A DNA stretch of 64,000 nt from Marinobacter qingdaonensis (GTDB lineage Bacteria; Pseudomonadota; Gammaproteobacteria; Pseudomonadales; Oleiphilaceae). The notes beneath the pieces were generated by a model. It had not been told where the DNA came from and did no database searches. It saw only the letters and a list, made by a program, of their open reading frames with translations. How positions within the stretch are numbered: the first letter of the stretch is position 1; each line of letters opens with the position of its first letter. The DNA lies in assembly GCF_034555935.1 (NCBI RefSeq), contig NZ_JAYDCJ010000001.1, positions 434,001 to 498,000 on the forward strand, given 5' to 3'. A program made the translations under genes and the position numbers. Below are positions 42,613 to 53,061 of the stretch, in pieces.

Positions 42613-44187
42613 TCACACTATGGCGTCAACGGGCTTCTTCCGGGGCCAGACCAGACTGAAGCGGGCGCCACCGAGCGCCTCGCTGCGGCCGACAAAGGCC
42701 TGACCGCCATGCCAGTACAGGATGCGTCGAACAATGGACAGGCCCAGGCCATAGCCACCGGAGGTTCGGGTCCGGCTGTCGTCGAGCCGGGCAAAGGCGG
42801 TGAACACCTTCTCCCAGTCCTCTTCCGGCACCCCGGGGCCATCATCTTCGACGTCGATCCGGCAGTTGTCCTCATCGATCTGGCAGTGCACCACCACCCG
42901 GCCGGCGGCGTAGCGGCCGGCATTGCCGACCAGGTTCTGGATCGCCCGGTGGATGTACCGGGGCTCGACGTCCGCCATGGCCCAGCGCTCGGCGCTCGAC
43001 TCGATGTCGGCGGTAATTTCCAGGTGCGGCCGGATCAGCTGCTGCTCTTCCACCACCTGCCGGACCAGACCGGTTACCGAGGCCTCCTGCAGGGAGAACA
43101 CCGGGCCGCCCTGCTCCAGGCGGGCGTAAGTCAGGATCTCGTCGATCAGCTCGTCCAGTTCCTGGATGTCGCCATCAATGCCCTCGAGCTGTTTGCGCAA
43201 GCGTTCCTGATCGTCGCAATCTTCAAGCATCTGGACGCCAAAGCGGATCCGCGCGACCGGGGTTCGCAGCTCATGGGACACCGCGTGGATCATCTCCCGC
43301 TGCACCTGCACCAGGCGCTGGATGTGCTCGGCCATGCCATTAAAAGAGGCGGCCAGGCGCGAGACCAGGGTGCCGGTGCCGGTTTCGACCCGGGCGCCCA
43401 TCTCGCCCCGGGCGATGCGGATCGCCACGGACTCGACCTTGCGCAGGTTGCTGTCCACCTCGCGCAGCCCCAGGAACAGGGCCACCGCCAGCACCCCACC
43501 GATGACCACCACCAGCAGCAGTACCACAGGCCAGGCCCAAGGATTGAGCGGTGGGGCGAAATCGACCCGGAACAGCTCGCCATCGTTGAGCTGCATCAGG
43601 ATGTGACCGGCCTCATCCCGGCCATTGCGGAAGAACACCAGCCCCGATTGGACCACCCGGTCGAGCACGTCCACCGAGGGCAACAGGCCGGCGTCATCCA
43701 CTGGCCGGATCCGCACGTCCAGCGCCTTCGTCATCTGGCCAATCAGGTCCGGCCGCTCCTCGGCGCTGACCGCAGCCAGATGCCAGCGCACGATCAGCGC
43801 CACGGCCTCGGCCACATCGCGGTAGGGCTCATCAAATCGAAGCTGCAGCACCCGGCCATCTGCAGCGGCCACCAGCACCCGGTGCCCCAGGGTACTTTTC
43901 TCCGCCACCACCTGATCGTAGCCCAGGCGCTCACGGGTGACCGGCGACAGGCCCAGCTGCTCCGGCCCCGACACCCGGAAGTCGTACAGCGTGGTCAGCC
44001 AGTGGTAACGCTGGGCGGGGGCCGGATCGGACTGCAACCATCGCATCAACGGTTCGGGAAAGCGCTCTTGCCAAAACTGGGCACGGACGGCGTTGACCCC
44101 GACGAACAGCGCGACACAGAGAATCACCACCAGGGCGGTCAGGCCGGCAAAGCGGGCATAAAGCTTGAGGAAGAACATCAAGGGCAT
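42613..44187 (-). CDS. RstB-like sensor histidine kinase
   Basis: The 524-residue kinase has two membrane helices (about residues 11-33 and 192-213), a periplasmic sensor of about 155 residues, a HAMP domain (about 215-270), a DHp domain with the phosphoacceptor His in HAVSHELRTPVARIRFG, and an ATPase domain with N (IQNLVGNAGRY), G1 (VEDDGPGVPEEDWEKVF) and G2 (SGGYGLGLSIV) boxes. The start has AGGG nine bases upstream. It follows its response regulator by 68 bp. Overall similarity is to RstB; the signal is unknown. Confidence 0.93.
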   Translation of the reverse strand: MPLMFFLKLYARFAGLTALVVILCVALFVGVNAVRAQFWQERFPEPLMRWLQSDPAPAQRYHWLTTLYDFRVSGPEQLGLSPVTRERLGYDQVVAEKSTLGHRVLVAAADGRVLQLRFDEPYRDVAEAVALIVRWHLAAVSAEERPDLIGQMTKALDVRIRPVDDAGLLPSVDVLDRVVQSGLVFFRNGRDEAGHILMQLNDGELFRVDFAPPLNPWAWPVVLLLVVVIGGVLAVALFLGLREVDSNLRKVESVAIRIARGEMGARVETGTGTLVSRLAASFNGMAEHIQRLVQVQREMIHAVSHELRTPVARIRFGVQMLEDCDDQERLRKQLEGIDGDIQELDELIDEILTYARLEQGGPVFSLQEASVTGLVRQVVEEQQLIRPHLEITADIESSAERWAMADVEPRYIHRAIQNLVGNAGRYAAGRVVVHCQIDEDNCRIDVEDDGPGVPEEDWEKVFTAFARLDDSRTRTSGGYGLGLSIVRRILYWHGGQAFVGRSEALGGARFSLVWPRKKPVDAIV

Positions 44188-44255: not shown

Positions 44256-44993
44256 TCAGGCTTCCTTGACGAACAGGTAGCCTTTACTGCGAACGGTCTT
44301 GATCCGGCGGGGATGGATGGGGTCGTCGCCGATCTTCGGCCGGATCCGGGACACACGGACATCGATGGACCGATCCTGGCCGTCGTATTCGATGCCGCGC
44401 AGCGCGGTGAAGATTTCTTCCCGACTCAGCACCCGGCCGGCGTTGCTGGCCAACAGCCAGAGCAGGTCGAATTCGGCGCTGGTCAGGTCAATGCTTTCGT
44501 CGCTCAACCAGGCTTCCCGCATGGAGCGGTCCACCACCAGATCGTTGAACTGCAGACGCACCGGCTCTTCGCCACTGGCTTCGTCGCCCGCCGCCTGGCC
44601 GGTTTCGGTCACCCGGCGCAGCATGGCCCGAATGCGGGCAAGCAGCACCCGGGGTTTGACCGGCTTGCCAATGTAGTCGTCCGCGCCCATTTCCAGGCCC
44701 AGCACCTGATCGAGGTCGTCGGTGCGGGCGGTGAGCATGATGATGGGGCCGGTGTAGAAAGGGCGTACCCGGCGACAGATCGACAAACCGTCTTCGCCCG
44801 GCAGCATGAGGTCAAGTACCACCAGGTCCGGCTGCTCGTTGCGGATGCGCTCGACCGCGGGTCCGCCGTGGGTTTCGAGGGAGACGTTCAGGCCATTACT
44901 CTCCAGGTACTCTCGGGTCAGCTCGGCCAGCCGTTCGTCATCCTCAACGATGAGAATTCGCCAACTTTCGTTTGTCTGTTCCACGCCATCCAT
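44256..44993 (-). CDS. OmpR-family response regulator, RstA-like
   Basis: The 245-residue regulator has a receiver domain with acidic pocket (IVEDDERLAEL), phosphoacceptor Asp in LVVLDLMLPGEDG and Lys in GADDYIGKPVKPRVLLARI, followed by a winged-helix DNA-binding domain (VDRSMREAWLSDESIDLTSAEFDLLWLL to DVRVSRIRPKI). I took the ATG at 44993 (MDGVEQTNESWRILIVEDD); the frame runs to 45065, but that ATG lies in the proposed -10. An in-frame ATG at 45041 is also possible. It is divergent from olsB and upstream of its kinase. Confidence 0.93.
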   Translation of the reverse strand: MDGVEQTNESWRILIVEDDERLAELTREYLESNGLNVSLETHGGPAVERIRNEQPDLVVLDLMLPGEDGLSICRRVRPFYTGPIIMLTARTDDLDQVLGLEMGADDYIGKPVKPRVLLARIRAMLRRVTETGQAAGDEASGEEPVRLQFNDLVVDRSMREAWLSDESIDLTSAEFDLLWLLASNAGRVLSREEIFTALRGIEYDGQDRSIDVRVSRIRPKIGDDPIHPRRIKTVRSKGYLFVKEA

Positions 44994-45064
44994 CTCTGGT
45001 TTTGTTATTCCAATGGTAAGTACCACACCCTGCCCGACCATACAGGCAACCTGATGTAACAGCA

Positions 45065-45093
45065 ATTATACATGCTATTCAGAAATATACATG
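45065..45093 (-). promoter_or_regulatory. Candidate promoter of the two-component operon with direct repeats
   Basis: On the minus strand a perfect TATAAT (45070-45065) lacks a good -35 (CATGTA at 17 bp). Instead an 8-bp sequence, TATACATG on the plus strand, is directly repeated at 45067-45074 and 45086-45093 (19 bp apart). A weak -35 plus direct repeats is what an activated, possibly autoregulated, promoter would look like. Confidence 0.45.
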
Positions 45094-45155
45094 GAACGGG
45101 GGCACGGTTACAGCCGGTGACAGGACACCGTGGGCTGGCCCAATCGGCCAGGTTT

Positions 45156-45215
45156 TGTCATCGACACGTCACCCGCCGGTCACGGACGTGTCACACCGGC
45201 TTCATAGGCTTGTCG
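45156..45215 (+). promoter_or_regulatory. Tandem PhoB-type box array upstream of olsB
   Basis: Half-sites occur every 11 bp: TGTCA (45156), CGTCA (45167), GGTCA (45178), TGTCA (45189), then weaker CTTCA (45200) and TGTCG (45211). PhoB boxes consist of TGTCA-like repeats with 11-bp period. The array ends 27 bp before the olsB start. A -10-like CATAGG at 45203-45208 would fit the four strong sites as the -35 substitute. The periodic pattern is seen directly; binding by PhoB is inferred. Confidence 0.8.
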
Positions 45216-45242: not shown

Positions 45243-46004
45243 ATGACCGCACAAACCGCGAAACCGCGTCGCAGCGCCCGCCGTCTCAAGACCGCCATCA
45301 CCCGCCGCCCGGAACTTATCGAAGCGGCGCAGCGTTTGCGCTACCGGGTGTTTTCCGAGGAGTACGGCAGCAACCTGGGTGCCAAGGTACCGGGCCTGGA
45401 TGCCGACGACTTCGACACCGTGTGTGATCATCTGATTGTCACCGATGGCGACAGCGGCGAACTGGTCGCCACCACCCGCATCCTGCACCAGGCGGATATC
45501 GCCGCCGTGGGTGGCTTTTACTCCGCCGGCGAGTTCGACCTGGCGGCGCTGACCCAACTGCCGGGCGCTGTGGCCGAATTGGGCCGGACCTGCGTGCATC
45601 CGGATTACCGCAATGGTGCCACCATCAGCCTGCTCTGGTCCGCGGTGGCCGAGTATTTGGTCGCCCACAACGTGGATTACCTGATCGGCTGCGCCAGCAT
45701 CAGCATGGCCGATGGCGGCCTCAAGGCCTGGCGCATTGCCCGCCACCTGCAGCGGGAATACCTGGCCGACGACGGTATCCGGGTGACCCCGCGGCGGGAA
45801 CTGCCACACCTGACCCACACGGTGGACGACGACCGCCCGGTCGACGTGCCCCCGCTGCTAAAAGCGTACATGCGCCTGGGCGCGCGGGTTTGCGGCGAGC
45901 CGTGCTGGGATCCGGAATTCCGGTGTGCCGACCTGCTGGTTCTGCTGGAGGTCAACAACCTGGCCGCCCGCTACAGCCGCCATTTCCTGGGCAAAGCCTC
46001 CTGA
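45243..46004 (+). CDS. olsB: Ornithine N-acyltransferase OlsB (lyso-ornithine lipid synthesis)
   Basis: OlsB attaches a 3-hydroxyacyl chain from acyl-ACP to the alpha-amino group of ornithine, giving lyso-ornithine lipid. The 253-residue GNAT-fold protein carries recognisable family blocks: LRYRVFSEEYGSNL, VAELGRTCVHPDYRNGATISLLWSA, LIGCASISMADGG and LLKAYMRLGARVCGEPCWDPEF. I chose the ATG at 45243; upstream codons from 45072 run through the Pho-type box and are not coding. olsA follows after 21 bp. The promoter suggests induction by phosphate limitation. Confidence 0.88.
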   Translation: MTAQTAKPRRSARRLKTAITRRPELIEAAQRLRYRVFSEEYGSNLGAKVPGLDADDFDTVCDHLIVTDGDSGELVATTRILHQADIAAVGGFYSAGEFDLAALTQLPGAVAELGRTCVHPDYRNGATISLLWSAVAEYLVAHNVDYLIGCASISMADGGLKAWRIARHLQREYLADDGIRVTPRRELPHLTHTVDDDRPVDVPPLLKAYMRLGARVCGEPCWDPEFRCADLLVLLEVNNLAARYSRHFLGKAS

Positions 46005-46025: not shown

Positions 46026-46844
46026 ATGGCACCGCTGCGACTGTCACTTCGGCTGACCGCTTTTACCCTGTTCCTGGGCGCCACCGCCGTGCTGGCGGCA
46101 ACGCTGCTGGCCACCGACACCCTGACCCGGCGCAGCATTGATCGCACCCCCTGGGCCCGACGCTGCTTTCGCTGGGCCTGCCGGTGCCTGGGTCTGCACA
46201 TCCAGGTCCACGGAACGCCCTCCCCGGACCCGGTCCTGTTCGTGAGCAACCACATCAGCTGGACCGACATCCCGGTGCTTGGCAGCCAGGCACCGATGCT
46301 GTTCCTGTCCAAGGCGGAGGTCGGCGACTGGCCGCTGATTGGCTGGCTGGCGCAGCAGGCGGGCACGCTGTTCATCAAGCGAGGCGGGGGCCGGGCCCGA
46401 CGGGTCCGGCAAACCATTGCCGAGCGACTGGCCGACGACGAGTCGGTACTGGTGTTTCCGGAGGGAACGACGAGCCAGGGTCTGCAGGTGCTGCCCTTTC
46501 ACGGGCTGTTGCTGGCGGCGGCGGAGCAGTCCGGTCGACCGGTTCAGGCCATCACCATCAGCTACCGGCGCGACGGACGCCCCGATCCCATCGCCCCCTT
46601 TGTGGGCGACGACGCCTTCCACCGGCATCTGTTCACCCTGCTGCGTCAGCCCAGGGCCCGGATTGATGTGCTGTTCCACCCGCCTGAACCGGGGGACCCT
46701 GCGCTGGGCACCGGTGAACTGGCGGCCCGGCTGCAGGCACGCGTGCAGGCGGGGCTGACGCGGATTCAGGCGGGGGAGCTGGACGCCCCGCCCGCGGAGA
46801 CGATCAGAACAGTGGCCGGCCCTGGGCTATCTCGTCCTCGGTAG
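46026..46844 (+). CDS. olsA: Lyso-ornithine lipid O-acyltransferase OlsA (PlsC family)
   Basis: The 272-residue protein is a 1-acyl-glycerol-3-phosphate acyltransferase family member with an N-terminal hydrophobic helix (LTAFTLFLGATAVLAATLLA), the catalytic HX4D motif (SNHISWTDIPVLG) and the substrate motif FPEGTTSQG. Next to olsB it most likely adds the second acyl chain to lyso-ornithine lipid, though PlsC activity on lysophosphatidate is an alternative. It starts after GGAGGGG, and its last 41 bp overlap the convergent FKBP gene. Confidence 0.85.
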   Translation: MAPLRLSLRLTAFTLFLGATAVLAATLLATDTLTRRSIDRTPWARRCFRWACRCLGLHIQVHGTPSPDPVLFVSNHISWTDIPVLGSQAPMLFLSKAEVGDWPLIGWLAQQAGTLFIKRGGGRARRVRQTIAERLADDESVLVFPEGTTSQGLQVLPFHGLLLAAAEQSGRPVQAITISYRRDGRPDPIAPFVGDDAFHRHLFTLLRQPRARIDVLFHPPEPGDPALGTGELAARLQARVQAGLTRIQAGELDAPPAETIRTVAGPGLSRPR

Positions 46845-47274: not shown

Positions 47275-49484
47275 CAGGCGTTCGAGTTTCCTGTATCGGT
47301 TGGCGAATCAATCTGTTGCAGGCCGTGGATCAGCAGCCGCTGGTCCAGCTTCTCCCGCAGCCCGGTGGGGCGCTCAAGCCCCATTCGGGCCAGCAACGTC
47401 CCATAGCGGTCGTGCTCGTCCCGGGCCCGGACGGCGTGCCACAGGGTCGTCAGTTTACCACGACGGGTCGCCGTTGCGGCCTTCAGGGTTTTAAGGGCTT
47501 TCCCTAACGTCAGTTCCTCATCGGTGAAATCCCGACCGAAGGGAAACGCCGGGAACAGCTGCTCTTCCCCGCTGCCGGCGACCACCGAGCGCACCGCCTC
47601 GGGCGTGTTGCCGCACCAATCCTCGGGCAGGCGGAATCCCGGATCGACCTTGCCGGCCTTCTGCGCCTGCTTCAGCAGGCCCGGCTGGAACCGGGAGTCG
47701 GCGATCCGGATCAGCTGCAGGTAGACCTGTTCGTCCGATTGGCCGCGCAGGTCGGCGATGCCGTATTCGGTAATGACGATATCCCGCAGGTGGCGGGGAA
47801 TGGTGCAGTGAGCGTAGTTGAAAACGATGTTGGACAGGGTTTGCCCGCCGCTGTGGCGGGTGGCCCGCAGACAGAGAATGGAACGGGCCCCGGGCAGTTC
47901 GTGGGCCATGGCGACAAAGTTGTACTGCCCGCCGACTCCACTGACCACGCGGCCGTCTTCCAGGCCATCGGACACCGCCGCGCCACCCAGGGTGTACATC
48001 ATCGCGGAATTGATGAACCGGCTGTGCACCCGCTGCGCCGCTTTCAGACGCTGGTTGCCGTAGCGATGGTCGTACAGGTGGTTGATGAAGTTCACGCTGG
48101 TCATGCAGATGCGCTGGCGCTGCTCGGCGTCCAGTTCCCTGAGCGCCTGGTAGAAGCGCTCCGGCCCGACGTAGAAGCCACCGTGCATGGCCACACCACC
48201 CTTGAGCCGCCGCCCCAGGGCCAGCACTTCGATGGCCTGGCGGGCCTCGGGATCGTCCAGATCCCCCTCCACCGACTGGCCATTGACCAGAAGCCGGCCG
48301 CCCTTGAACTGGACCGCCTCCTTGAACACACCGACGCTGACCAGCCAGCTGACATCCCGGGCCCGGAGCGGGGAATCGATCAGGCGGGCGCGCCGCAGCA
48401 CGTCCAGCGACCCCATGGACACCTGCTCATCCAGCTCACCGGCGTTGATCAGTACCTGCAGGTCGGCGTGGTCGAACACCTCGCGCCGGAGGATGCCCGC
48501 CTGCATCAGATGCAGGAAGCCGTCCACCATCATCTCGCTGCACCCGTACAGGCCCCGCTCGAATGGCCCCGTGCCACCCTCCTCGCGCACCACCGGAAAC
48601 CGCTCGCCCACGCGGAGCTGATCATAAACCGCACGCCAGTCGCCGTTGCGCTGGTGCCGGAGGATGGTGCTGTGCACCAGCGCCGCGCCCAGCGAGCCGA
48701 TCCCCACCTGCAGGGTGCCGCCATCGCGCAGCAAGGCGCTGGCGTAGAACCCTATCAGATGGTCCTCGGGGCTGATCGCCATTTCCGGCGCCGAAAACAG
48801 CGGATAGTCGGTCGCGGGCTGCTCGAACACCAGATCAAAGTCCGACGCATGAACGGCCGCGTGCCGGTCCAGCCAGGGCAAATTGCGATTCAGCTCCGCC
48901 ACCAGCGCGACCGGCGTACCCTGGGCCTGCCGCTCGCGCAGCAGCGGCATCAGGTCCAGGGTCAGATCGGGATTGCAGCTCAGGCTGACCATACCGGGTT
49001 TGCCAACGGCGTCCCCGGGCGCCACCATCTGGGCCACCACATTCACCCCCTGGGCCATCAGGTCTCGCACCGCGTGGGTGTAATTGCTGCAGACGTAGTG
49101 CCGCTGCTGGGAGGTGTTGTTCAGATAGTTGCCGGCTTTGAAGAAGAACTCGGAGACCCGGACGTTGTCCGGCAGCCGATTGCCGACCACATCCCGGGCG
49201 TAAGCCAGCTCCGGGATGGCACCATAGAGGCGTTCGGCAAAGGGCTCCAGGAATCGGCGCTCGAGGGAGGAGGAGCCTTTGGGCGCCAGCAGCGACAACG
49301 CGGTGACGATGTGCAACTGCAGCTCCGGGTCGTCCTTGGCGCGCTGATACAGGGCATTGACGAACCGGATGGGCTTACCCAGGCCCAGGGGCAGGCCCAG
49401 GGTAATGGTCTTGCCAACCCGGGCGATCAGCTCATCCACACAGGCGTTCACATCGTTCGAACGACGACCGGTCTCCTCCGCCAT
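47274..49484 (-). CDS. Acetyl-CoA hydrolase/transferase family protein
   Basis: The 736-residue product belongs to the acetyl-CoA hydrolase/CoA-transferase family, shown by the C-terminal block GVGGQYNFVAMAHELPGARS, RHSGGQTLSNIVFNYAHCTIPRHLRDIVITEYGIADLRGQSDEQ. It is much longer than ordinary family members of about 500 residues, with extra sequence within and at the C-terminus (about 100 residues after the DLRGQSDEQ block). The start is ATG 49484 with AAGGAG seven bases upstream. Substrate (acetate, succinate or another acid) is not predictable. The FKBP gene is translationally coupled behind it. Confidence 0.88.
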   Translation of the reverse strand: MAEETGRRSNDVNACVDELIARVGKTITLGLPLGLGKPIRFVNALYQRAKDDPELQLHIVTALSLLAPKGSSSLERRFLEPFAERLYGAIPELAYARDVVGNRLPDNVRVSEFFFKAGNYLNNTSQQRHYVCSNYTHAVRDLMAQGVNVVAQMVAPGDAVGKPGMVSLSCNPDLTLDLMPLLRERQAQGTPVALVAELNRNLPWLDRHAAVHASDFDLVFEQPATDYPLFSAPEMAISPEDHLIGFYASALLRDGGTLQVGIGSLGAALVHSTILRHQRNGDWRAVYDQLRVGERFPVVREEGGTGPFERGLYGCSEMMVDGFLHLMQAGILRREVFDHADLQVLINAGELDEQVSMGSLDVLRRARLIDSPLRARDVSWLVSVGVFKEAVQFKGGRLLVNGQSVEGDLDDPEARQAIEVLALGRRLKGGVAMHGGFYVGPERFYQALRELDAEQRQRICMTSVNFINHLYDHRYGNQRLKAAQRVHSRFINSAMMYTLGGAAVSDGLEDGRVVSGVGGQYNFVAMAHELPGARSILCLRATRHSGGQTLSNIVFNYAHCTIPRHLRDIVITEYGIADLRGQSDEQVYLQLIRIADSRFQPGLLKQAQKAGKVDPGFRLPEDWCGNTPEAVRSVVAGSGEEQLFPAFPFGRDFTDEELTLGKALKTLKAATATRRGKLTTLWHAVRARDEHDRYGTLLARMGLERPTGLREKLDQRLLIHGLQQIDSPTDTGNSNA

Positions 49485-51186: not shown

Positions 51187-51226
51187 AGTCTCTCCGCTGT
51201 CGGGTTTCGGGAACGGGTAAAGGGAA

Positions 51227-51253
51227 TGTCATGGGAATGTCGCAGAACTGTCA
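51227..51253 (+). promoter_or_regulatory. Tandem PhoB-type box upstream of the glycosyltransferase
   Basis: Three strong half-sites lie exactly 11 bp apart: TGTCA (51227), TGTCG (51238) and TGTCA (51249). Weaker matches GGTAA (51216) and TTTCG (51205) continue the 11-bp period upstream. The array ends 49 bp before the GTG start at 51303. A weak -10-like CACACT lies at 51265-51270. This is the same architecture as in front of olsB. Confidence 0.72.
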
Positions 51254-51302
51254 CGCCCCCTTTCCACACTGGGTACATGTCAGGGGAAGCACAGGAACCA
51301 TC

Positions 51303-52523
51303 GTGACCGATACCAGTCTGGCCACACGGCGCCAACAGCACATTACCATTGTATCTGAGACCTTTCCGCCGGAAATCAATGGCGTGGCGAATACACTCAG
51401 ACACCTTTGCCAGGGGCTGATGCAGCGTGGCCACCGGGTCTCGGTGATTCGTCCGCGCCAGCGCCACGAGCGCAAGGGCATGGTCGAAAGCGCCGGCCGG
51501 GCCCTGTTCAGCCACGAACACGTGGTCACCGGTCTGCCCCTGCCCGGCTACGCCGACCTGCGTTTCGGTCTCGCCCGCAGCGGCCAACTGCGCAAACTCT
51601 GGAAGCAGGACCGGCCCGACGCGGTCTACGTCGCCACCCAGGGGCCACTGGGGGTGGCCGCGGTCGGTGCCGCTCGGGCACTGGCCCTGCCGGTCAGCTC
51701 CGGTTTCCACACCAACTTCCACAGTTACAGCCGGTATTACGGCGTGGGCATTCTGGAACGGCTGCTGTGCGCCTATGGCCGCTGGTTCCACAACCGCACC
51801 GCAATCACCCTGGTGCCGACCCGCAAGATGGCACAAACCACCGCCGCCATGGGCATCAGGCCCACCGGACTCTGGAGCCGGGGCGTGGACTGCGGCCGGT
51901 TCGCACCGCACAAGCGCGACCAGGCGTTGCGGGCCCGCTGGGGTCTGGCCGCCAACGACCGCGCCGTGCTCTACGTCGGCCGGCTGGCGCCGGAGAAAAA
52001 CCTGCGTATGGCCGTGGCCTGTTACGAACGCATTCGCGCCCTGCACCCTCAGGCCAAATTCATTCTGGTGGGCGATGGCCCGCTGCGCCGGCAACTGGCG
52101 GACAAGCACCCGGACTACATCTTCTGTGGCACCCAGCGGGGCGAGGATCTGGCCCGCCACTACGCCTCCGGCGACCTGTTCCTGTTCCCCAGCAAGACCG
52201 ACACCTTTGGCAACGTGGTCCTGGAGGCCATGGCCAGCGGTCTGGCGGTGGTGGCGTTTGACGACGGCGCCGCCAGCGAGCACCTGCGCCATGAGGAAAA
52301 CGGCATGAAGGCGCCACTGAGCACGGACGAGGGGTTTGTCGACGGCGCGCTGCGCCTGGCCGACCAGCCCACCTTGCTGAATCGCCTTCGGGCCCAGGCC
52401 CGCCTGGACGCCCTTGAGCTGGACTGGAACTCGCAAATCGAGCAGTTCGAGCAACTGGTTTTCAATCAATCTGCCAGGACGGAATACCATGCCATCAACA
52501 AGCAGAGCATCTCGCTTCTTTGA
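51303..52523 (+). CDS. GT4-family glycosyltransferase (MgtA/SqdX-like)
   Basis: The 406-residue GT-B glycosyltransferase has the N-terminal acceptor domain (ITIVSETFPPEINGVANTLRHL) and a C-terminal nucleotide-sugar domain (LYVGRLAPEKNL, FLFPSKTDTFGNVVLEAMASG with the EX7E-type motif in its DX7E form). It resembles enzymes that glycosylate diacylglycerol or other lipids in glycolipid synthesis. Start GTG 51303 has AGGA six bases upstream. Its 3' end overlaps the PAP2 gene by 35 bp. The substrate is inferred, not shown; the Pho-type box suggests phosphate-starvation induction. Confidence 0.85.
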   Translation: MTDTSLATRRQQHITIVSETFPPEINGVANTLRHLCQGLMQRGHRVSVIRPRQRHERKGMVESAGRALFSHEHVVTGLPLPGYADLRFGLARSGQLRKLWKQDRPDAVYVATQGPLGVAAVGAARALALPVSSGFHTNFHSYSRYYGVGILERLLCAYGRWFHNRTAITLVPTRKMAQTTAAMGIRPTGLWSRGVDCGRFAPHKRDQALRARWGLAANDRAVLYVGRLAPEKNLRMAVACYERIRALHPQAKFILVGDGPLRRQLADKHPDYIFCGTQRGEDLARHYASGDLFLFPSKTDTFGNVVLEAMASGLAVVAFDDGAASEHLRHEENGMKAPLSTDEGFVDGALRLADQPTLLNRLRAQARLDALELDWNSQIEQFEQLVFNQSARTEYHAINKQSISLL

Positions 52524-53061
52524 ACAGGCAGACCAGCGTGAATACGCCTTCTGCCAGGCCATCAACCGCGTCGCCGGGGTACCCTCGGTACTGGGTTACT
52601 TTCGGCTGGTGAGTCGGCTCGGGGATGGCTGGTTCTGGTACGCCCTGATCCTGGCCTTGCCGTTCCTGGCGCCTCCACCGGGGCCGGCGCTGGCATTGCT
52701 GATGGCCCTGACCGGGCTGAGCTGCACCCTCACCTACAAGCTGCTGAAACGGTGGCTGATCCGTGAGCGACCGTTCATTTCCTTTCCGACCATCAACTGC
52801 GGCACACCGCCCCTGGACCGCTACAGCTTCCCGTCCGGCCACACCTTGCACGCGGTCTGCTTCCAGACCATGCTGTTTGTCGCGGTGCCGGCGTTGGCGC
52901 TGGCCATCCTGCCGTTCACGCTGAGCGTGGCGGCTTCGCGGGTGGTGCTGGGTCTGCACTACCCCACCGACGTGGCGGCGGGTGCGTTGATCGGCGGTCT
53001 GATGGGCTTTGCCGCCAGCCACTACCTGCTGGCGGACATGCAGCGACTGATGGCGGGGTAG
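52489..53061 (+). CDS. PAP2-family membrane phosphatase
   Basis: The 190-residue membrane protein has all three PAP2 phosphatase motifs: KRWLIRERP, YSFPSGHTLH and ASRVVLGLHYPTD. PAP2 enzymes dephosphorylate phosphatidate, undecaprenyl pyrophosphate or related lipid phosphates. Four to five membrane helices are evident. The ATG at 52489 lies inside the end of the glycosyltransferase gene, so the two are co-translated. Together they could turn phosphatidate into diacylglycerol and glycosylate it, which is inference. It converges on dinB with a 2-bp gap. Confidence 0.88.
   Translation: MPSTSRASRFFEQADQREYAFCQAINRVAGVPSVLGYFRLVSRLGDGWFWYALILALPFLAPPPGPALALLMALTGLSCTLTYKLLKRWLIRERPFISFPTINCGTPPLDRYSFPSGHTLHAVCFQTMLFVAVPALALAILPFTLSVAASRVVLGLHYPTDVAAGALIGGLMGFAASHYLLADMQRLMAG

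Follow-up and report, generated by a model that had tools for sequence, protein, structure and literature searches.

PhoB control of ornithine-lipid genes has already been published or predicted in other genera, namely Acinetobacter, Vibrio cholerae and Burkholderia. In Acinetobacter a PhoB-type box stands before olsB and PhoR-dependent aminolipids are made at low phosphate; the accessible part of that report describes one box, matched to the E. coli consensus, and an olsA gene that lacks a box and is unresponsive (PMC11828411). In Burkholderia sensu lato a Pho box has been predicted genus-wide before olsB, with 18-bp single-box matrices in the portion of the study available to us (PMC7814305). 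Vibrio cholerae also makes a PhoB-dependent, phosphate-regulated ornithine lipid, but according to the available excerpt it does so with the enzyme OlsF, not OlsBA (PMC12186959). In the PlcP-Agt systems of Pseudomonas aeruginosa and marine bacteria, as far as the accessible texts go, Pho boxes precede the phospholipase and glycosyltransferase genes and glycolipids are formed at low phosphate (PMC8528852, PMC4796936).

The Marinobacter qingdaonensis locus described here, part of a 64,000-nucleotide stretch of DNA that was analysed as a whole (the window), resembles the Acinetobacter and Burkholderia loci in having a PhoB-type site before olsB. It differs from Acinetobacter in that four half-sites are present and olsA follows closely behind olsB, and from the single-box matrices of Burkholderia in its tandem array and probable -10 layout; whereas PlcP-Agt systems pair the glycosyltransferase with plcP, the putative Agt-like glycosyltransferase of Marinobacter is paired with a PAP2 gene near olsBA. 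In the E. coli Pho regulon, promoters with several boxes, pstS for example, carry tandem 11-bp half-sites before the -10 element, and we liken the olsB array to these. A literature search combining Marinobacter, ornithine lipid and phosphate returned nothing on the subject by title or abstract, which is weak evidence of absence, subscription journals being mostly outside its scope. What we add is the Marinobacter olsB array, a correction of its size to four sites, and a plausible surrounding regulon. Judged from sequence, the olsBA control region is very probably a PhoB-activated sigma-70 promoter (Table 1).

Table 1. Features of the olsBA locus and of the second array in the window (coordinates are window positions)
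Feature	Coordinates	Strand	Basis or remark
RstB-like histidine kinase gene	42613..44187	-	best NCBIfam RstB, below cut-off
Divergent RstA/BfmR-like response regulator gene	44256..44993	-	best NCBIfam RstA, 264 of 330 bits needed
Nearly invariant second block of the shared intergenic region, towards rstA	45057..45100	.	35-sequence alignment
RstA-box-like TACA-N6-GACA	45109..45122	+	outside the array
PhoB-type half-site 1, TGTCA	45156..45160	+	
PhoB-type half-site 2, CGTCA	45167..45171	+	
PhoB-type half-site 3, GGTCA	45178..45182	+	
PhoB-type half-site 4, TGTCA, adjoining the -10	45189..45193	+	
Probable -10 hexamer, TAGGCT	45205..45210	+	10 nt downstream of TGTCAC; takes in the end of step 5 of the first-pass annotation
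Step 6 of the first-pass annotation, TGTCG	45211..45215	+	score -0.3; unconserved; probably around the transcription start
olsB-like ornithine N-acyltransferase gene	45243..46004	+	Pfam Acetyltransf_5 over cut-off; best NCBIfam models OlsB
olsA-like lyso-ornithine-lipid acyltransferase gene	46026..46844	+	Pfam Acyltransferase over cut-off; best NCBIfam models OlsA
Second array: weak GGTAA 51216, then TGTCA 51227, TGTCG 51238, TGTCA 51249	51216..51253	+	
Probable -10 of the second array's promoter, CACACT	51265..51270	+	CATAGT in 27/29 (self counted)
Family-4 glycosyltransferase gene, probably of a lipid	51303..52523	+	Pfam Glyco_transf_4, Glyco_trans_1_4
PAP2-family phosphatase gene, tentative start	52486..53061	+	Pfam PAP2

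The names OlsB and OlsA are supported by the best NCBIfam models, by Pfam and by the olsB-olsA pairing. The NCBIfam equivalog models, which are named for Brucella and Rhodobacter, scored below their cut-offs, at 159 and 152 bits for OlsB (cut-offs 320 and 350) and 138 and 135 bits for OlsA (cut-off 300). The amino acid of the lipid need not be ornithine and could be another; lysine lipids have been reported with olsBA in Acinetobacter, in the part of the source at hand (PMC11828411). A roughly 250-bp intergenic region separates olsB from the divergent regulator gene, for whose product the best models are RstA and OmpR and the nearest solved structures RstA and BfmR.

The first-pass annotation had described six PhoB-type steps in front of this gene pair. 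All six pentamers are present where it had placed them (TGTCA 45156, CGTCA 45167, GGTCA 45178, TGTCA 45189, CTTCA 45200 and TGTCG 45211), and the gap of 27 bp that it gave is indeed the distance between 45215 and the olsB ATG at 45243. Its broader description, a PhoB-type array adjoining olsB-olsA, also holds, in that the 11-bp pitch is exact and is kept in relatives, and the phoB gene of the genome carries a similar box. When the region was scored with a half-site matrix, a check proposed along with the original claim, the four-site score was 32.1 at 45156, which ranks first in the window over both strands, the maximum in 30 first-order Markov windows being 14.5. The matrix was derived from 122 distinct half-sites upstream of glycosyltransferase and plcP-like genes in other Marinobacter genomes, selected for TGTCA matches spaced 11 bp apart; olsB sites were left out. 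When three sites are scored with the same matrix the olsB array comes second, and with two sites it comes fourth, because the 51227 array ahead of it matches the genes behind the matrix; a minus-strand place at 49293 also outscores it in the two-site ranking.

Taken singly, the six steps score 10.2, 6.1, 7.5, 8.3, 1.5 and -0.3, and the array of PhoB-type sites therefore has four steps, not six: steps 1 to 4 of the claim stand, while steps 5 and 6 do not, the latter also varying among relatives. Half-sites 2 and 3 are non-consensus. The pattern KGTCA-N6-BGTCA-N6-BGTCA has a single exact match in the 3.99 Mb genome, the olsB array itself, and allowing one mismatch raises this to 11 rows at 8 distinct genome places, against 3 rows for a reversed control pattern.

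Conservation upstream of olsB orthologues, chosen beforehand as the test that might refute the claim, was examined and left it standing. Upstream of olsB, 40 of the 42 named Marinobacter loci (L048-L089) have four TCA cores at 11-bp pitch, and 40/42 likewise have at least three of four GTCA; L080 and L082 lack both the fourth core and the three GTCA. In a 35-sequence alignment (the window and 34 loci) the mean majority identity is 0.99 in the GTCA columns and 0.65 in the spacers, the seven long intergenic regions (L058, L074, L080, L082, L086, L087 and L088) and L067 having been left out, so that the contrast is drawn without L080 and L082, the two loci that lack the fourth core. The olsB upstream region exceeds all 200 of its own Markov shuffles in 40/41 Marinobacter loci (the remaining one being L082), 29/38 other gammaproteobacterial loci and 17/20 family loci, the shuffles not being beaten in 9 and 3 loci of the last two sets. 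It also outscores every other four-site piece of the locus in 39/41 Marinobacter, 37/38 other and 15/20 family loci, although the control pieces are mostly coding and the self-shuffle test is the fairer comparison; L067, with too little upstream sequence, was left out of both counts. In the Marinobacter exceptions (L084 and L085) the better piece is the glycosyltransferase array, there 3.3 kb away, and a better piece elsewhere was also found in one other locus (L124) and five family loci (L216, L217, L222, L225 and L227). Separately, another array-like stretch was seen in the divergent olsB clade of Marinobacter (396 in L225; ~2.1 kb before olsB in L222 and L227), preceding a two-gene unit upstream of olsB that consists of a peptidase-like and a hydrolase-like ORF.

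The genome encodes one PhoB over the TIGR02154 cut-off (357 bits). Its recognition helix RTVDVHIRRLRKAL and wing TVRGTGYRFST match residue for residue those in the 1gxp complex of E. coli PhoB with DNA, and in the E. coli protein residues T194, V197, R201 and R219 contact bases, according to the accessible portion of the source (PMC3264566). The published Pho half-site is TGTCA with 6-bp spacing, again from a partially available text (PMC6194859). The box of phoB itself, CTGTCATATACTTGTCAT, lies 55 bp before the ATG and is the best match to the E. coli consensus in the genome, no other coming within one mismatch of it; with up to two mismatches the consensus returned 23 rows genome-wide, against 4 for the control. 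On reading by eye, two of the three PstS-family genes have a box, CTGTAACAAAGTTGTCAC for the best and CTGTCACATTTCTGTCGC for another, and none was seen for the third (L154).

A different protein could in principle occupy the array, since the divergent RstA/BfmR-like regulator might bind it, autoregulate and drive olsBA on an envelope signal. RstA belongs to the PhoB family and its recognition helix (RSIDVRVSRIR) is similar, and the residues with which PhoB and RstA contact DNA differ too little for protein sequence alone to decide between them; moreover, rstA lies beside olsB in 41/42 Marinobacter loci (the L067 stretch is too short) and in family loci L232-L235. However, the published motifs differ from the array, being TACATNTNGTTACA for E. 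coli RstA, in the part of the paper available (PMC4117788), and CGTAC-N0,5-CGTAC for P. aeruginosa BfmR. The available stretches of all 38 non-Marinobacter loci, of which 29 still beat their shuffles, and of L216-L231 yielded no rstA homologue near olsB, and the array motif also precedes phoB, pstS, the glycosyltransferase gene and the plcP-like gene. Within the array there is no TACA-N6-[TG]ACA, the sole match between 44991 and 45243 being the box at 45109, which makes some RstA input possible. The same motif is found upstream of olsB in 33/41 Marinobacter loci, and this box and the nearly invariant block next to rstA may be RstA's own sites, with RstA adding input. We disfavour the regulator as the less likely binder of the array itself, and its control of olsBA through the array appears improbable.

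With PhoB as the preferred binder of the four half-sites, the sequence behind them has a promoter-like layout. A hexamer lies 10 nt behind the last TGTCAY in 42/42 Marinobacter olsB loci (TAGCCT 25, TAGGCT 15, TAACCT 2), and at the same distance there is CATAGT (27) or CACACT (2) in 29/29 glycosyltransferase promoters with a three-site array and an nAnnnT hexamer in 26/26 plcP-like promoters with an array (30 examined in either set), although the loci are kin to one another and the counts thus not independent. The hexamers of the studied genome (TAGGCT, CACACT and GAGCAT) are weak, each agreeing with TATAAT at three of six positions. Step 5, at 45200, is probably better read as the -10 region of the promoter, mainly because the nAnnnT hexamer keeps one register in three unrelated promoters. 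The pattern GTCAY-N6-GTCAY-N9-11-TANNNT occurs at two places in the genome and nowhere in the control. The second place (L129; G000:C3:963754-963786, minus strand) reads GTCAC-N6-GTCAT-N11-TATAGT and has no obvious Pho gene behind it.

This layout also bears on the proposal of the first-pass annotation that all six steps are PhoB half-sites forming three full boxes, which we hold to be very unlikely. Step 5 is in register and kept in Marinobacter, and step 6 matches at four of five bases in the studied genome, but both score poorly, step 5 coincides with an nAnnnT hexamer that two further promoters carry at this position, the step 6 position reads GTCCATG, CGGAGAC and similar in relatives, and PhoB at steps 5/6 would cover the start site. 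The six-site reading was rejected on the low scores of steps 5 and 6 together with the variation among relatives. It is possible that PhoB at these steps would be repressive at high PhoB~P; the accessible text of PMC6194859 describes repression by a weak PhoB site that lies close to the -10 of E. coli phoB. Chance or a coding by-product with no regulatory role, for which the shortness of TGTCA-like pentamers and an in-frame ORF extending from 45072 through the region might speak, is an extremely remote explanation of the spaced repeats, as simulated windows reached at most 14.5 against 32.1, conservation follows the 11-bp phase and not codons, with a strong core-to-spacer rate contrast, and relatives share the distance to the ATG (47-50 bp).

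Beyond olsBA, three of the eight near places of the three-site pattern precede probable lipid genes, namely olsB, the glycosyltransferase-PAP2 pair ~6 kb from olsBA, and a PlcP-like gene; reading of the ORFs at the other five (L008, L009, L015, L016 and L017) gave no clear Pho gene. The NCBIfam models nearest to the glycosyltransferase are lipid glycosyltransferases, all below cut-off. The PlcP-like gene encodes a calcineurin-like phosphoesterase with a Metallophos domain and sub-cut-off LpxH matches, which we take to be PlcP by its resemblance, and its site (L135) is also among the matches to the E. coli Pho box consensus with up to two mismatches. Three or more xGTCx spaced 11 bp apart are present in the glycosyltransferase promoter of 29/30 loci and the plcP-like promoter of 26/30. 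A strong glycosyltransferase match was obtained in 50 of 61 Marinobacter genomes, weaker and fragmentary ones being left out, and 45 of these 50 also have olsB; the glycosyltransferase gene lies 3.3-6.2 kb downstream of olsB on the same strand in 39/45, and the six others have a more divergent olsB. Outside the genus, homologues of both the glycosyltransferase (45%) and the PAP2 protein (51%) come directly after olsA in a Chromatiales MAG (L090), as does a glycosyltransferase homologue (48%) in Thiohalocapsa (L121); neither of these loci has an olsB array that beats its own shuffles.

What we observed at olsBA is a set of conserved sites and a promoter layout shared with other units, in a genome whose PhoB has the contact segments of the E. 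coli protein. From them we infer PhoB binding and activation, a -10 role for the hexamer, a response to phosphate and the nature of the products, as follows. When phosphate is scarce, PhoR would phosphorylate PhoB, and PhoB~P would occupy the four half-sites head to tail, probably as two dimers. The last half-site would replace the -35 element, 10 nt before TAGGCT, and RNA polymerase would be recruited. OlsB and OlsA would then make ornithine (or other amino-acid) lipid, which would replace phospholipid. The same promoter design before three units suggests joint switching, and olsBA, the glycosyltransferase-PAP2 pair and the PlcP-like gene, which would be switched on together, are suggestive of one lipid-substitution regulon.

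We put forward only tentatively, and with more doubt than belief, a dedicated Marinobacter Pho lipid-substitution module of olsBA, the syntenic glycosyltransferase-PAP2 pair and plcP, in which about four imperfect half-sites at each promoter, versus one pair at phoB and pstS, would impose a higher, cooperative PhoB~P threshold and the glycosyltransferase-PAP2 pair would constitute an unrecognised route to a phosphorus-free glycolipid. If the threshold reading is true, phosphate capture would begin ahead of membrane replacement, which would wait until starvation is deep; if the module reading is true, a phosphorus-free glycolipid from glycosyltransferase-PAP2 would be made alongside ornithine lipid.

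Across much of the ocean phosphorus is growth-limiting, and the exchange of phospholipid for phosphorus-free lipid is a main saving. If PhoB control of olsBA is true, Marinobacter would have a genus-wide switch for this lipid swap that can be read from sequence, the linked glycosyltransferase-PAP2 pair would be a candidate partner pathway, and the genus would offer a clean way to test if additional PhoB half-sites order the onset of starvation genes.
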